A stretch of 6,339 nucleotides of DNA from Candidatus Eiseniibacteriota bacterium (GCA_023132135.1 JAGLYR010000006.1:1-6339), one strand, 5' to 3'; positions 152 through 6,339 are shown, counted from the stretch's first letter. Notes: generated from the sequence alone by a model not told the origin. Made by a program: numbers and translations.

Positions 152-1246
152 TTGCCCAAACGGAGACAGCGATCCTCGTCAGTGATCTCGCCTCCGCAGC
201 TGGAGACCGGGGAGACCGTGGCTTCGGTTGTGGAAAAGTCCTTCCTGGCCTACAACAGCCGGAGACTCGGGGAGGCCTGCCGTCTGTTTGTGGAGAAGAT
301 AGCCAGGCCCAGGACGCGGATTGCCCTGGCCATCTCCGGTGCTCTCACGCCTGCCGGATTGGGGGCCTCGTGCATCGTTCCTCTCATTGACCACGGGTGG
401 GTGGACTGGATTGTCTCGACCGGTGCGAATCTCTATCACGACCTGCACGTGACTCTCGGTTTTCCGCCGCAGCGGGCTCCCCGGGATGTAGATGATGCCC
501 GCTTGCTGGAGGAGGGCCAAGTCCGCATATGCGACATTCTCCTTCCAATGGAAGCGTTACTCGAGACAGATTGCTTCATAAGAGACACCGTCGGAGCGGC
601 GGTCGATGAGGGAAGGCTGAAAGGACCCTGCTCATCGGCGGATGTTCATCGGCTGTTGGGAGAGGCGCTCATTGCAAAGGACCTGCGGTCGGTGGAGAGG
701 AGTATTCTCGCTGCGTCTGTGAGGTGGGACGTCCCCGTGTATACGGGAGCCGCTGGCGACTCGTCCATCGGCATGAACCTGGCCGCGCTGGAGCTGGCCG
801 GGCGGCGGGTCGGCCTGGAAGGCGCCAGAGACGTCAATGAAACCGCTGCTTTTGTGTACGACATCAAGCGTTCGGGCGGACGGTCAGCCGTCGTGATTCT
901 CGGGGGGGGCACTTCGAAGAATTTCGCTCTGCAAACAGAACCCCACGTCCAGGAGGTTCTCGGGTTGGATGAGAGGGGCCACGACTTCTTCATCCAGTTC
1001 ACGGATGCGAGGGAAGATACCGGTGGGTTGAGCGGGGCGACTCCTTCCGAGGCGGTGACGTGGGGCAAGGTGGATCCGGACCGGCTGCCCGACACGTTGG
1101 TTTGTTACGGGGACTGCACGATCCTGGTGCCGCTGTGGACGGCCTACTTGCTGGAGCGGTGCCGGAAACGCAAGCCTTCTCGAATCTGGAAAAGGCGGGA
1201 CGCGTGCTTGAAACGACTGGGCGCGGATTACGCGTCGCGGCGCTAG
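152..1246 (+). CDS. Deoxyhypusine synthase family protein (bacterial homospermidine-synthase-like type)
   Basis: The 364-residue protein has the deoxyhypusine synthase fold signature throughout. Seen in it are an NAD-site segment STGANLYHDLH at 89-99, GDSSIGMN at 202-209, GGGTSKNF at 251-258, and the catalytic block SGATPSEAVTWGK at 294-306. K306 falls where human DHS has its active-site lysine (K329), with E300 and W304 also kept; the later YGD at 319-321 matches the human YAD. This family transfers the aminobutyl group of spermidine via NAD and an enzyme-imine. Eukaryotes and archaea use it on eIF5A; bacteria lack that substrate, and characterised bacterial members make polyamines such as homospermidine. 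Human-type residues H288 and D316 appear replaced by N257 and L293, which fits a non-eIF5A substrate. Length is normal for the family (human about 369). The C-terminus after 336 is strongly basic. It is cytosolic by family and is first in a probable five-gene unit. The family call is firm; the exact product is not. Confidence 0.9.
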   Translation: MPKRRQRSSSVISPPQLETGETVASVVEKSFLAYNSRRLGEACRLFVEKIARPRTRIALAISGALTPAGLGASCIVPLIDHGWVDWIVSTGANLYHDLHVTLGFPPQRAPRDVDDARLLEEGQVRICDILLPMEALLETDCFIRDTVGAAVDEGRLKGPCSSADVHRLLGEALIAKDLRSVERSILAASVRWDVPVYTGAAGDSSIGMNLAALELAGRRVGLEGARDVNETAAFVYDIKRSGGRSAVVILGGGTSKNFALQTEPHVQEVLGLDERGHDFFIQFTDAREDTGGLSGATPSEAVTWGKVDPDRLPDTLVCYGDCTILVPLWTAYLLERCRKRKPSRIWKRRDACLKRLGADYASRR

Positions 1247-2382
1247 CTTTCACCCTGGGACTGGGCCCTCTGATTACTCCGGGCGCCTGCGAGGACCGGG
1301 GAGATGTACCGGAGGAGTGTGCCGAGCCACTGCAGTGGCTGGCCAGCGCCGAGGACACTCCTAACGACAATGGTTCGTCTCTCACAATCCGTTGGATGGC
1401 AGCTGGAGATGTTCCTCAGAGCACGCCGGTGCGGATTCTCCGGCAGGCCGAAGGCGACACCGCATTGTGTGAGATGGGTCGGGCGAAGCTGGGGGATGGC
1501 ACATACGAGGACAAGAGCGGTTTGGAAAGGGGCCGGCGATACCGGTATCGGTTGCTGGTTCCGCCTGGTTCGGGACTGGCCCACTCGGCCGAAACCATGT
1601 GGGTCGCGCCGACAGCCCAGTGGTTTGACGGCGGCGGGATCGCTGTCGCCATAGCCATCTCCATCTTCTGCCTGTTGGTACTTGTTTGCATCATTCGAGC
1701 CCGACGCGGCGCGGACGTGTTCATCCGGAGAATCCCGGGCCTTGAGGCAGTGGACGAGGCCATCGGGCGGGCGACCGAGATGGGAAAACCCATTGTGTTC
1801 TCGCCGGGAATCGATGAGGTGGACCAACCGGGGACCATCGCGGGACTGGCCATTCTGGGGAATGTCGTTGAGCGAGCCGCTGCCAATGGAACCCGCACAA
1901 TCGTACCGAACCGCGATCCCGTGGTGATGACGGTGACGCGGGAAATCGGACGGGAGGCCTGCCTGGTTGCGGGCCGTCCGGAACTGTACCGGGACGAGGA
2001 CTTCTACTACGCGACCTACAGCCAGTTCGGCTACGCGGCCACGGTGGCGGGTACCATGGTCCGGGAGCGTCCGGCGGTCAACTTCTTCATGGGGAACTTC
2101 GCGGGGGAAGCACTTATTCTTGCAGAAACCGGCTATTCCACCGGCGCGATGCAGATTGCGGGATGCGATGCGGACACACAGCTGCCCTTTTTCATTACGA
2201 CCTGCGACTACACACTCATTGGGGAAGAGCTGTACGCAGCGGCGGGATATCTGTCCCGGGACCCGGTGCTTCTGGGAAGTCTGAAGGGACAGGACGTGGG
2301 CAAACTGATCCTTATCGCCGGGATGATCGCCGGAGTCGTGCTGGCGGTCCTGGGCGTGGATATCGGGTCCTTTCTGAAATGA
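1204..2382 (+). CDS. Membrane protein with fibronectin-III-like domain and DUF6754-like domain
   Basis: A 392-residue protein from the GTG at 1204. An N-terminal hydrophobic segment (about 11-28, ending PGAC) is a signal peptide or anchor. Residues 41-136 look fibronectin-III-like: a DTPNDNGSSL turn, an RW strand, then RYRYRLLVPP and SAETMWVAPTAQWFD. A membrane helix at 145-164 is followed by the basic RARRG. Residues 170-365 are an alpha/beta domain that I associate with DUF6754, and a second helix lies at 367-386. By positive-inside reasoning the FnIII part is outside and the second domain cytoplasmic. The frame is open back to 1060, but GTG 1204 is preferred: it alone gives a clean signal segment, AAAGG lies 8 nt upstream (1191-1195), and the next start-like codon is ATG 1396, inside the FnIII region. 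It overlaps the synthase gene by 43 nt in another frame. The function is unknown; the domain name is recalled from family knowledge and needs a profile search. Confidence 0.8.
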   Translation: MLETTGRGLRVAALAFTLGLGPLITPGACEDRGDVPEECAEPLQWLASAEDTPNDNGSSLTIRWMAAGDVPQSTPVRILRQAEGDTALCEMGRAKLGDGTYEDKSGLERGRRYRYRLLVPPGSGLAHSAETMWVAPTAQWFDGGGIAVAIAISIFCLLVLVCIIRARRGADVFIRRIPGLEAVDEAIGRATEMGKPIVFSPGIDEVDQPGTIAGLAILGNVVERAAANGTRTIVPNRDPVVMTVTREIGREACLVAGRPELYRDEDFYYATYSQFGYAATVAGTMVRERPAVNFFMGNFAGEALILAETGYSTGAMQIAGCDADTQLPFFITTCDYTLIGEELYAAAGYLSRDPVLLGSLKGQDVGKLILIAGMIAGVVLAVLGVDIGSFLK

Positions 2383-2397
2383 GCGGGAAACACGCTG

Positions 2398-3036
2398 ATG
2401 AGCAGAACAGCCGCCATCATCATCGCCTTTGTCCTGGGTCTCTTCATGATGATCCAGTTCTTCATTCCCCATCCCGCTGTCACCGGGATCTATAACACAC
2501 TCCTTGACATCAAGCAGATCGTTCTTGGGTGCGCTTTCATACTGGGAGTGCTGAGCCTCATCCGCTTTCATGCCGGGCGGATCAGGCAAAAGCAGGCAGG
2601 CGGGTGGTACAGCTCGGCGGCATTGCTGGGTCTTGCCGTAATGGTGGTGATGGCGCTGGTCTGGGGTACGGAGGACGGACCCTACCGCTGGATGTTCAAC
2701 AATGTGCAGGCGCCGATGCAGGCCACGATGTTCTCACTCCTGGCTTTCTTCGTGGCAAGCGCGGCCTACCGGGCCTTCCGGGTCCGAAACCTGGACGCCA
2801 GCGTTCTGTTGGCCGTGGGTGTGGTCGTCATGCTGGGACGGGTGACACTCGGGACCCTGTTATCATGGGACATCGGTGGGCAGACCCTCAGCTTGGCGGG
2901 CGCCTCGGAATGGATTCTTCACAGTGTTAATGTTGCTGCAAAACGGGGCATTCTGATTGGAGTGGGATTGGGGATGATCGCCACGGCGCTGCGCATCATC
3001 ATTGGTCTGGAGCGGACGTATCTGGGAAGAGACTAG
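2398..3036 (+). CDS. Uncharacterised six-helix membrane protein
   Basis: The 212-residue product is almost entirely membrane-embedded, with likely helices near 4-23, 38-56, 72-89, 107-127, 133-153 and 183-203. Charged loops are short. Recognisable blocks are the loop NNVQAPMQATMFSLLAFF at 101-118 leading to AYRAFRVRN at 123-131, and a C-terminal VNVAAKRGILIGVGLG followed by ALRIIIGLERTYLG. No catalytic motif or known transporter signature is seen. ATG 2398 starts 15 nt after the preceding stop. Its ribosome site is weak (GCGGG lies too far upstream), so translation may depend on coupling to the previous gene. An ATG at 2379 overlapping the upstream stop is in another frame and is rejected. 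It probably supplies the membrane core of a complex with its neighbours, by gene order only. Confidence 0.85.
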   Translation: MSRTAAIIIAFVLGLFMMIQFFIPHPAVTGIYNTLLDIKQIVLGCAFILGVLSLIRFHAGRIRQKQAGGWYSSAALLGLAVMVVMALVWGTEDGPYRWMFNNVQAPMQATMFSLLAFFVASAAYRAFRVRNLDASVLLAVGVVVMLGRVTLGTLLSWDIGGQTLSLAGASEWILHSVNVAAKRGILIGVGLGMIATALRIIIGLERTYLGRD

Positions 3037-3053
3037 GCGACAAGGCGAGAAGC

Positions 3054-3060
3054 GGAGGAG
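3054..3060 (+). promoter_or_regulatory. Strong ribosome binding site deciding the ATG start at 3065
   Basis: GGAGGAG at 3054-3060 sits 4 to 6 nt before ATG 3065. The open frame extends back to 3002, inside the preceding gene, but no comparable site is found for that earlier start. The site therefore fixes the start at 3065. Confidence 0.75.
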
Positions 3061-3064
3061 GCGG

Positions 3065-3910
3065 ATGTTTTCCGCGCAATCAATTGCTGAGAAACTTGCC
3101 GCTCTTGATCGGCGAATCATTTTCCTGCTGGTCGGAATCGTCGTGCTCATTCCGCTGCTCGTTCCGCTGGATCTGCCGGTCGTGGTCTCGAGGGAAACGC
3201 GGGATTTCCACGATGAGATTGAGGCGTTGAGCGACAGCGCGGTGTTGATGCTGGCAATCGACTACGAACCGGACACAATGGCCGAGCTGGACCCGATGAC
3301 GCTGGGCGTTCTCAGGCACTGTTTCCGCAAGGGTGTCCGGGTAGTGGCCCTGAGCCTGTACGCGGGTGCTCCCGGTATCGCTCAGCGTCTCCTGGAGAAG
3401 GCGGCGGGCGAGTACGGCCGCGCCTACGGAGAGGACTACATCTACCTGGGATACAACCCTGACTGGTCGGGTACGATGTTGAGGCTGGGCGAAAGCATCA
3501 AGGCGACCTACCCTAAGGATCAATGGGGAACACCGAGTGTGGATCTTCCACTCCTGAAGAATGTGGATTCATACGATGATGTGGATCTCCTGGTGTGCAT
3601 CAACGGGAGTAAGTACGCAGAATTCTGGGCGGCCTATGCCCAGGCGCGGTACGGCCAGCGAATGGTCTCGGGCAACACGGCCGTCATGTCGGTGTTCATC
3701 TACCAGTACTACAACACCGGACAGATCTCGGGTTTCCTGGGTGGGATCAGGGGAGCGGCGGAGTACGAGAAGATGCTCGGACTCCCGGCGGACGGAACGA
3801 TCGCGATGGGGTCACAGTCGTGCGCGCATGTGCTCATCGTGTTGCTGATCATAGCGGGAAATGTGGGTTACCTGCTCGCTCGCAGGGCGAAGCGAAAAGG
3901 TAGCATCTGA
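3065..3910 (+). CDS. Uncharacterised protein with an alpha/beta domain between two membrane helices
   Basis: The 281-residue protein starts at ATG 3065 after a strong GGAGGAG site. A short basic N-terminus (DRR at 15-17) precedes a membrane helix at about 19-39. Residues 40-250 form a soluble domain with alternating predicted strands and helices: AVLMLAIDYEP at 59-69, VRVVALSLYAG at 91-101, EDYIYLGYN at 123-131 and DLLVCINGS at 174-182. A second helix at 255-272 is followed by the basic tail RRAKRKGSI. Both ends carry positive charge, which suggests the domain faces the periplasm or exterior. The domain shares an order of landmarks with the C-terminal domain encoded at 1204-2382 (see findings). 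No nuclease, kinase or hydrolase motif is recognised. It lies 28 nt after the previous gene and 27 nt before the next. I do not recognise the family by name. Confidence 0.85.
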   Translation: MFSAQSIAEKLAALDRRIIFLLVGIVVLIPLLVPLDLPVVVSRETRDFHDEIEALSDSAVLMLAIDYEPDTMAELDPMTLGVLRHCFRKGVRVVALSLYAGAPGIAQRLLEKAAGEYGRAYGEDYIYLGYNPDWSGTMLRLGESIKATYPKDQWGTPSVDLPLLKNVDSYDDVDLLVCINGSKYAEFWAAYAQARYGQRMVSGNTAVMSVFIYQYYNTGQISGFLGGIRGAAEYEKMLGLPADGTIAMGSQSCAHVLIVLLIIAGNVGYLLARRAKRKGSI

Positions 3911-3937
3911 TACTCCGGATTTGGATTGCAGGACGGC

Positions 3938-4570
3938 ATGCACATCTCCTCCGACATCGGCATCTGGATCGCGGCTCTGGGTACGATAGCGATCTTCAGT
4001 TTTCTTTATAGGGAAAACCCGGTGTTCCGGTTTGCCGAGCACCTGCTGGTTGGCGTCTCGGCCGGATACTACCTGGTCCAGTATGCTCACTCGGGGCTGA
4101 TCAAGAAGTTCTGGTATCCGCTCACAGCGGGAGGCAATTACTGGCTGGTGTTCGGGGCGCTCCTCGGTGCGATGATGTTCCTGAAGCTCAACCGGAAAAC
4201 GCGAGGTTGGGGGAACATCCCGGTTGCCTTCTACGTAGCCACGGGAGCGGGCTATCTTATCCCGTCCGTGATGAAGTCAATGGTGCTTCTCCAGGTCGGG
4301 GGAACTATCCGGAATCCCTTCGCTGCTGGAAACAGTGCCGGGGACGCAATCACGACGATCGTCATTTTCGTCGGTGTCATCTGCACTCTGGTCTACTTCT
4401 ACTTCTCTGCTCGCCGGACAGGCGTGGTCAAACACGTTTCCCGGGTCGGCATGCTCTTCCTCCTGGCCGGGTTCGGGGCCACCTTCGGTTACACTGTCAT
4501 GGGCCGGATTACTCTCCTCATCGGGCGATTCCAGTTTCTGCTTCGAGATTGGCTGGGTGTAGGAATCTAG
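3938..4570 (+). CDS. Uncharacterised polytopic membrane protein
   Basis: The 210-residue product has likely membrane segments near 7-23, 33-50, 66-83, 94-112, 138-156 and 169-187, ending in an amphipathic region. Distinctive blocks are ENPVFRFAEHLLVGVSAGYY at 26-45, followed by LVQY, and GATFGYTVMGRITLLIGR at 180-197, followed by FQFLLRDWLG. These read like strongly conserved family motifs, with H35 and several Gly and Arg residues in or beside membrane segments, but I cannot name the family. The start is uncertain. ATG 3938 is preferred because AGGA at 3930-3933 lies 4 nt ahead; a TTG at 3926 in the same frame would add MQDG. It is the last gene of the tight run, and a perfect 7-bp hairpin overlaps its stop codon. 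Confidence 0.85.
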   Translation: MHISSDIGIWIAALGTIAIFSFLYRENPVFRFAEHLLVGVSAGYYLVQYAHSGLIKKFWYPLTAGGNYWLVFGALLGAMMFLKLNRKTRGWGNIPVAFYVATGAGYLIPSVMKSMVLLQVGGTIRNPFAAGNSAGDAITTIVIFVGVICTLVYFYFSARRTGVVKHVSRVGMLFLLAGFGATFGYTVMGRITLLIGRFQFLLRDWLGVGI

Positions 4571-4663: not shown

Positions 4664-4755
4664 CCTCGTCGCTTGTCACCCTGCCACCTGTCACTGGGTT
4701 GAGGCCGGCCCCCGTCGGTGTGACGAGGGCGAGTGACAAGTGTCGAGTGTCGAGG
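4664..4755. repeat. Inverted heptamer-type intergenic repeat, copy 2
   Basis: The left arm at 4664-4697 carries GTCAC-like words at 7 to 8 nt steps; its part 4676-4697 is the near-identical copy of window bases 1-22. The right arm, about 4721-4755, carries the same kind of words on the opposite strand (GAGTGAC, AAGTGTC, GAGTGTC at exact 7-nt steps from 4731). CTCGTCGCTTGTCAC at 4665-4679 can pair with GTGACAAGTGTCGAG at 4733-4747, giving 13 Watson-Crick pairs, one G-T and one mismatch, over a 53-nt loop. It could be an intergenic repeat family, a transcript 3'-end structure or a protein-binding array; the sequence does not decide. Confidence 0.65.
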
Positions 4756-4911: not shown

Positions 4912-4918
4912 TTTGGTT

Positions 4919-6339
4919 TTGCGCTTGCCTGTTGGCATCAGTTGGACGAACGCTGTGTGCGTGCTGCTCCTGGTTGGTCTGGCCACGCGGGACGCCGGAG
5001 CTGTCTGCGGAAATGAGGAAGAGCATTTCCTCCATCGGGCCCGCTCTCTGGTGGAAGAAGGAGAGGCCGGAAGGGCGCTGTCCGTCCTGAGAGACGGACT
5101 GGAGTCGTCGCCGGAGGAAGTCCAGGGATGGTTGCTTGTGGGGCGGATTCTGGGCGAGCTGGGTGGCTACGAGGGAGCGGTGGAAGCCTACGGGAGAGTT
5201 GCAAGGGATCTCCCATTGCTGGGGGATTGTGCGCTTCTTCTCCGGAGCGATCTTGCTCTGGAGCAGGGACGGACGGCCGACGCGGAATCCGGCTATCGCG
5301 ACGCATTGCGGGAGTTCCCTGGATCGCCCCATGCCCGCCGCGCGTTGCTGGGACTGGGCCGGGCGGCCAGTGCTGAGGGGCATTGGCGGCGGGCGGCTGA
5401 GGCTCTCGATGAATTCCTGGCCAGGAGAGGTTCCAAAGAGGAAACGATAGAAGCACTCCAACTCCTGGCGGCGGCCCGCCTGGCTGAGGACGATTGGCTG
5501 GGAGCGCAGGCCGCCTACTACGAGCTGTGGAAGGACCACCCGGGGAGCGAGGAGGCGGCAATGGCCGCCGAGGCGCTGGAGTTCCTCCGGACAACGCAGG
5601 GGCTGGTGCCACCGGTGCTGACGCCGGAACAGAGATTCGGGCGGGCGGAAAGGCTGAGGCGGGCGGGGAGTCTCAATCAGGCGGCCGCGGAGTTCGAGAA
5701 GATCGTGCGATCAAGCCCGGAGTGCGAGCTGGTTCCCGAGGCTGTCTATGAGCGTGGCATGATCTACTTCCGCCTCGGGGAAAACGGGCGGGCGATGGAG
5801 TGCCTGAAGAGCCTTGTGAAGCGCTATCCGGCTTCGGGTGCGGCGCCGGACGGGCTATATCTGATGGCCCGTATCCACTGGCGAAAAGGGTTCCGGCACC
5901 GATTCCTCTCGGCCTGCGAAGACGTTCTCGAGAGATACCCGGACACGCGCGCCGCGGAGAACGCCCAGTTTGCGCTGGGAGTTTTCTACATGGAGCGAAA
6001 CAAGCGTGACAAGGCGCTGGCGGCATTTCATGGAACTATCTCCGGGGATCCGTCCCACTCGCGCCGGCACGACTCACTCTGGAAGCTGGGCTGGCTGGAA
6101 TACCGGGATGAGAGATTCGAGGAAGCATTCGCGAGTTTCTCTCTTCTGGCCACCGAAGCTACATCGGGCTACCGGAAGGCGTCGTTGTACTGGTCTGCGC
6201 GGTGCCAGGAAAAGCTGGGTAACCGGGAGGAGGTCGAAGAGATCCTGCGCAGAGTTGCGGCGTCCTACCTTGGCGACCACTACGGGATCCAGGCCGGTGA
6301 GAGGCTCCTGGCGATGGGAGCTGGGGACATCGGGGATCG
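4919..6339 (+). CDS. Secreted TPR-repeat protein, possible N-terminal part of a Slt-type lytic transglycosylase (3' end outside window)
   Basis: The frame is open from TTG 4919 to the window end, giving 473 complete codons and no stop, so the gene is partial. Residues 1-28 are a signal peptide: R2 near the start, a hydrophobic core around VCVLLLVGLA (13-22) and an AGA cleavage site at 26-28, so the protein is exported. The rest is almost wholly helical, with TPR-like pairs beginning near 36, 69, 104, 137, 175, 236, 272, 309, 346, 382 and 421, each showing the small-residue and aromatic spacing of TPRs and often a Pro near the end (FPGSP, YPASG, YPDTR). Residues 421-465, with ASLYWSARCQEKLG and then SYLGDHYGIQAGERL, resemble the last superhelix turns before the catalytic domain of soluble lytic transglycosylases, which cleave peptidoglycan in the periplasm. 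That catalytic domain would lie beyond the window. Alternatives are a BamD/YbgF-like or purely scaffolding TPR protein. TPR and export are firm; the enzyme assignment is tentative. Confidence 0.85.
   Translation, partial: MRLPVGISWTNAVCVLLLVGLATRDAGAVCGNEEEHFLHRARSLVEEGEAGRALSVLRDGLESSPEEVQGWLLVGRILGELGGYEGAVEAYGRVARDLPLLGDCALLLRSDLALEQGRTADAESGYRDALREFPGSPHARRALLGLGRAASAEGHWRRAAEALDEFLARRGSKEETIEALQLLAAARLAEDDWLGAQAAYYELWKDHPGSEEAAMAAEALEFLRTTQGLVPPVLTPEQRFGRAERLRRAGSLNQAAAEFEKIVRSSPECELVPEAVYERGMIYFRLGENGRAMECLKSLVKRYPASGAAPDGLYLMARIHWRKGFRHRFLSACEDVLERYPDTRAAENAQFALGVFYMERNKRDKALAAFHGTISGDPSHSRRHDSLWKLGWLEYRDERFEEAFASFSLLATEATSGYRKASLYWSARCQEKLGNREEVEEILRRVAASYLGDHYGIQAGERLLAMGAGDIGD

Follow-up and report, generated by a model that had tools for sequence, protein, structure and literature searches.

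The window analysed here, a stretch of 6,339 nt, is the whole of contig C302 in a source genome of 3.4 Mb and 345 contigs. Four tightly packed open reading frames on the plus strand span positions 1204-4570: gene 1 (1204-2382, GTG start), gene 2 (2398-3036, ATG start), gene 3 (3065-3910, ATG start) and gene 4 (3926-4570), for which a TTG start was called at 3926, although the ATG at 3938 is likelier because it fits the family consensus MxxxxxxGxW. The intergenic gaps are 15, 28 and 15 nt, the last becoming 27 nt with the later start, and they agree with the spacing of 15-28 nt given in an earlier, sequence-only reading of this DNA. That reading had also described four consecutive genes, encoding a protein with FnIII-like and DUF6754-like parts, a six-helix protein, an alpha/beta domain held between two helices, and a polytopic protein; the reading frames, Pfam matches, structural models and profiles confirm this description.

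Upstream lies a deoxyhypusine-synthase-like gene (152-1246) whose end shares 43 nt with gene 1. With the homospermidine biosynthesis protein model it scores 440.6 bits, against a cut-off of 450, and in other genomes it does not recur beside the module. On the other side, a TPR-repeat protein with an N-terminal hydrophobic segment and matches to BamD/YbgF-like models (4913-6337) is truncated by the contig end. A 22-nt intergenic element, TCACCCTGYCACCTGTCACTGG, occurs at positions 1-22 and 4676-4697 of the window; the genome holds 11 exact copies of it, and the reversed control gave 0.

Gene 1 is a clear member of DUF6754 (PF20539; E 8.5e-105, 349.9 bits against a cut-off of 27, positions 2-251 of 257). 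Its product comprises an N-terminal signal or anchor, an FnIII-like domain predicted to be periplasmic, a transmembrane (TM) segment at residues ~146-164, the six-stranded Rossmann-like DUF6754 domain, and a C-terminal TM segment at ~369-387. The FnIII-like part matches PF00041 in 4 of 31 homologues (best 3e-11), and beyond DUF6754 and fn3 the gene 1 homologues have no Pfam match. Gene 3 likewise encodes a six-stranded alpha/beta domain between two TM helices, the second with a conserved His and GN. The single-chain AlphaFold2 models of genes 1 and 3 (pLDDT 91.0 and 95.4, respectively) share a common order of TM segment, helix, six alternating strands and helices, and TM segment. Family-averaged profiles give six hydrophobic segments in gene 2, with a predicted N-in/C-in topology and conserved ATMFSLLAFFxASAAYRAFR and GIERxYLG motifs, and six or seven in gene 4, which carries conserved SFLYKDNPFYKFAEHLFVG and FGASFGYTVMARISLLIGR. 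The four motifs that had been proposed as family signatures rather than random hydrophobic sequence all fall within conserved blocks (AYRAFR, GxERxYLG, FAEH and RISLLIGR). The window proteins of genes 2, 3 and 4 match no curated Pfam or NCBIfam family, and their homologue sets give weak, scattered matches that vary from one protein to the next. Paralogy between genes 1 and 3, or between genes 2 and 4, was considered and rejected, as profile comparison gave no signal (hhalign probability ~2%).

Foldseek searches with the gene 1 and gene 3 models returned nothing at E <= 0.001. In VIA-align, gene 1 resembles Sir2 (Z 12.3, rmsd 3.4, 142 aligned), phosphoheptose isomerase (~10), transhydrogenase dIII (Z 10.0, rmsd 3.3, 142 aligned) and CODH epsilon (9.3), and gene 3 resembles MT0777 and CODH epsilon (both Z 9.9) and TrkA (9.1). 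RCK/TrkA matches of both genes, at Z ~9, lie amid many unrelated Rossmann-like folds. These scores point to a Rossmann-like fold, possibly DHS-like, and do not indicate a function. The conserved DUF6754 residues (PG, QF, GxFxAES, AGT and CDYTLIGEE) sit near strand ends in the model, which suggests a putative ligand site. No solved relative of genes 2 or 4 was found by sequence, the match of gene 2 to 6cfw_B (Mrp subunit F; E 0.42) being at noise level. Inside-positive flanks place the DUF6754 domain of gene 1 in the cytoplasm (K+R 4.6 on the domain flank vs 1.1 outside), and the charge bias of gene 3, whose N and C flanks score 4.1 and 3.9 vs 2.1 and 2.7, indicates that its domain is probably periplasmic.

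A scan of genome contigs for DUF6754 yielded at least 560 confirmed relatives. The 80 kept for taxonomy come from Nitrospira and its relatives, WOR-3, Stahlbacteria, TA06, Latescibacterota, Eisenbacteria, Edwardsbacteria and Poribacteria, and from anammox (Brocadiales) and other Planctomycetota, Gemmatimonadota, Armatimonadota, Zipacnadia, Methylomirabilis and CSSED10-310. The module spans at least a dozen phylum-level lineages; DUF6754 was not found in any of the 14 control genomes. Protein 3 occurs in 43 of 145 whole genomes, nearly all from different families and genera, one of the 43 (G026) being a weak match in a genome without DUF6754 or gene 4. The recurrence of the four-gene order in distant phyla, which the sequence-only reading had named as support for its proposal, is borne out: complete, contiguous 1-2-3-4 units are present in 106 of 121 neighbourhoods, with 120 complete modules in total and median gaps of 9, -1 and 3 nt. 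The arrangement in the window therefore did not arise by chance. Most of the remaining 15 neighbourhoods are truncated at a contig end. Scattered or single homologues are rare; among incomplete loci, gene 1 stands alone in three (L075, L114 and L128), gene 3 alone in one (L066), and one (L070) has no recognisable gene 4.

Modules also occur in tandem arrays of two or three, and 25 of the 42 genomes with DUF6754 carry two or more DUF6754 genes, a few of these counts reflecting genes split between contigs. Tandem copies are about 50% identical and each is inherited as a unit: for all four genes, copies 0 and 1 of locus L045 pair with copies 0 and 1 of locus L137. Divergence is correlated among the genes (r 0.73-0.91). 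At three loci (L050, L119 and L148) extra copies of gene 3 adjoin the module, which would fit a diversification of this subunit.

Clustering of the flanking genes shows that the module keeps company. A barrel-sandwich (BSH) protein lies directly upstream of gene 1 in 46 loci, at a median of 5.5 nt before the module, a MutL/GlmL-like ASKHA ATPase lies upstream in 38-39 loci, and a protein of ~123 aa (S123) is among the flanks in 24. The commonest order is S123-MutL-BSH-1-2-3-4; one genome (G015) has S123-1-2-3-4-MutL-BSH, and many loci have the module with no adjoining MutL or BSH. In the source genome, which has one module, one MutL and one BSH, the partners lie outside the window because they are encoded on another contig, C332. 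The earlier idea of the four genes as one system is thus supported, but the unit that they form is not self-contained: its usual companions are an ATPase, a BSH protein and a protein of small size.

The association extends to whole genomes. Among 145 genomes, 42 encode DUF6754 and 39 encode BSH (counted at E below 1e-50), and all 39 of the latter have both (Fisher p 3e-32); for DUF6754 and MutL the corresponding p is 2e-25. Kinship would inflate these figures only moderately, because the 145 genomes are mostly one per family. Genomes have a single canonical BSH and, as a rule, a single MutL of the long form, set against up to six membrane modules. Most genomes with MutL and no module have a shorter, GlmL-like form (455-510 aa), one (G094) having the longer form. 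MutL and BSH are fused in several proteins. Five such fusions (L155-L159; ~860-1015 aa, or 881 aa where a contig end truncates the gene) come from genomes that also possess separate MutL and BSH genes, and their neighbours are housekeeping genes.

The partner ATPase matches PF13941 (E 8.6e-131), the Pfam family of GlmL/MutL from B12-dependent glutamate mutase, and the ASKHA motifs DxGSTTTK, DIGGATTD and GSGGxL are present in 35-38 of 39 homologues as well as in the copy from the source genome. It differs from GlmL in length (~600 vs ~460 aa), in the genes that it adjoins (BSH and membrane genes), and in score, a Nitrospira homologue reaching 242.4 bits with the GlmL equivalog model NF040745, below its cut-off of 475. 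The glutamate mutase genes GlmS/GlmE were not among its recurrent neighbours, which are BSH, module genes and sometimes gcv. The BSH protein is weakly similar to Biotin_lipoyl and, as a likeness to the barrel-sandwich proteins RnfC/NqrA, to RnfC_N (21.2 bits, below the cut-off of 25.6); the remaining Rnf/Nqr subunits are not among the recurrent neighbours. No solved relative of MutL or BSH was found by sequence. A role for BSH as a lipoyl or biotinyl carrier was considered and set aside, as the 46-member BSH consensus has no invariant lysine, and the LplA gene beside some loci is accounted for equally by GcvH.

Composition and membership tests separate the module, at the level of sequence, from ABC/ECF, TrkH, Rnf and GlmL systems. 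In ECF transporters a shared energiser serves several substrate modules, and the likeness is one of logic only, with one energiser set per genome and several membrane modules. Genes 1-4 of the window have no match to ABC_tran, EcfT or S-component families, and the homologues gave only below-threshold TMD0_ABC noise among ABC families (best E 0.026). The proton-translocating transhydrogenase PntAB and TrkH-TrkA also combine a membrane protein with Rossmann-like domains and give middling fold matches, but the module has no sequence family match to them and a different subunit plan, and its two domains seem to lie on different sides of the membrane; TrkH is not among the matches listed for gene 2 and gene 4 homologues at E up to 0.1. 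A clear match of the set to a known transporter or secretion complex, which would have spoken against a new system, was not found for genes 2-4.

Overall, we believe that genes 1-4 very probably encode a single hetero-oligomeric inner-membrane complex. In this complex genes 2 and 4 would form the membrane core, gene 1 would supply a Rossmann-like domain in the cytoplasm and an FnIII-like arm in the periplasm, and gene 3 would supply a domain of similar structure facing the periplasm. What the data show directly is the order of the genes, their co-occurrence, the MutL-BSH fusions, the conserved ATP motifs and the folds of single subunits; from these we infer the physical complex, the docking of MutL/BSH on the conserved DUF6754 domain, ATP coupling and transport. 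Mean pairwise identity is highest within the module for the cytoplasmic part of gene 1 (62%) and lowest for its FnIII/TM1 part (27%), and the greater conservation of the gene 1 domain relative to that of gene 3 (40%) is what contact between gene 1 and a common partner would predict. Coupling of the MutL/BSH ATPase to the membrane complex is, on balance, the better bet: the GlmL-type ASKHA ATPase and its BSH adaptor would work the complex from the cytoplasm, and ATP turnover would drive a conformational change through the core. That the outcome is transport is a tentative preference, and a doubtful one taken by itself; in the likeliest form, the complex would import or export a small solute that it recognises from the periplasm. 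For the explanation as a whole, a four-subunit complex worked by MutL/BSH for small-solute uptake or export, we see the chances as evenly balanced. A single ATPase and adaptor would then serve several modules, with specificity residing outside. Carried furthest, the proposal would define a new class of ATP-driven transporter in which one GlmL-type ASKHA ATPase and a barrel-sandwich adaptor energise interchangeable four-subunit modules of differing specificity, an ECF-like division of labour but from unrelated parts; we regard this as speculative and, as it stands, unlikely.

Of the other explanations, the one that fares best, though we think it improbable, makes MutL/BSH an ATP-driven chaperone or reactivase that remodels or repairs the membrane complex, which would itself be an enzyme or a sensor. 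In its favour, the ATPase belongs to the MutL/GlmL family, GlmL being described as a reactivating chaperone of glutamate mutase (PMC4682846), and two genomes, G065 (a single contig) and G084, have the four module genes with neither MutL nor BSH detected, as might be the case for a dispensable helper. These two genomes indicate in any event that the partnership with the ATPase is not universal. However, no B12-enzyme or metal-binding signature was found in the module, and MutL/BSH co-occurs with it more tightly than a repair helper requires.

Somewhat less likely is a nucleotide- or redox-linked complex coupled to one-carbon metabolism, in which gene 1 would use its Rossmann-like domain to bind NAD(P)(H) or a similar nucleotide and so tie the glycine cleavage system to the membrane. 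On contig C332 of the source genome, S123-MutL-BSH directly follows gcvT-gcvH-gcvPA-gcvPB, genes identified by reading their sequences rather than by family search, and precedes an ADP-forming acyl-CoA synthetase. Locus L137 has the order gcvT-H-PA-PB-S123-MutL-BSH-1234-1234-LplA, and gcv genes lie beside S123-MutL at 6 of 59 MutL loci, compared with 2 of 83 loci lacking MutL. The leading fold matches of gene 1 (Sir2, transhydrogenase dIII and CODH epsilon) would fit as well. At the same time, gcv genes are not nearby in 53 of the 59 MutL loci, and their link to MutL/BSH is suggestive rather than general; the fold scores are middling, with SIS, RCK and other Rossmann-like folds nearly as high; the gene 3 domain probably faces the periplasm, which offers no NAD(P); and neither conserved Cys pairs nor a flavin motif were seen.

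We consider it unlikely, more so than either of the above, that the complex is an ion channel, or a transporter of cations, whose gating depends on RCK-like domains in the cytoplasm and in which MutL plays a regulatory part: RCK/TrkA folds do appear among the matches of genes 1 and 3, and TrkH, DUF819 or citrate-type transporters lie downstream in single module loci, but the latter occur once each and are not conserved, generic Rossmann matches are common at Z ~9, and no signature of a channel is seen in gene 2 or gene 4. Where MutL is missing, the neighbours of the module are highly mixed and reveal no recurring pathway. Finally, a conserved, co-regulated cluster without a single physical complex would accommodate genomes in which the parts are scattered, such as G142 (gene 1 with BSH, MutL, gene 3 and gene 4 at separate sites of a single contig) and G067 (three contigs), but is very improbable given that all parts are kept even there, that divergent tandem copies are inherited as units and that the genes diverge in concert.

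Regardless of the specific mechanism, the four-subunit complex and its ATPase seem to be a conserved membrane machine so far undescribed. In the open-licence literature we found no paper that names DUF6754, and searches that included GlmL/MutL-like proteins returned no description of such a system; Pfam gives DUF6754 no function, and its entry omits the three partner genes and MutL/BSH. Complexes that span a dozen or more bacterial phyla and contain three unnamed subunits are rare. Occurrence in Nitrospira and anammox planctomycetes, together with the lack of any match in the 14 control genomes, may explain why this one was overlooked. If MutL powers the module, an ATPase of the actin/Hsp70 type, from the GlmL branch, would be driving a membrane machine, which to our knowledge is not a known role for the GlmL family.

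Two further genes recur around the module. A protein of ~150 aa with hydrophobic segments, one copy of which was searched and had no Pfam match, is encoded mostly upstream of S123-MutL in eight loci (L038, L044, L056, L063, L071, L081, L092 and L124). The second, found after the module in 19 loci, encodes a Memo-like protein (AmmeMemoRadiSam B) whose N-terminus resembles PqqD; nearly all of these loci are from Nitrospira/Nitrospiraceae, among them L083, L085, L088, L095-L097 and other Nitrospira loci.
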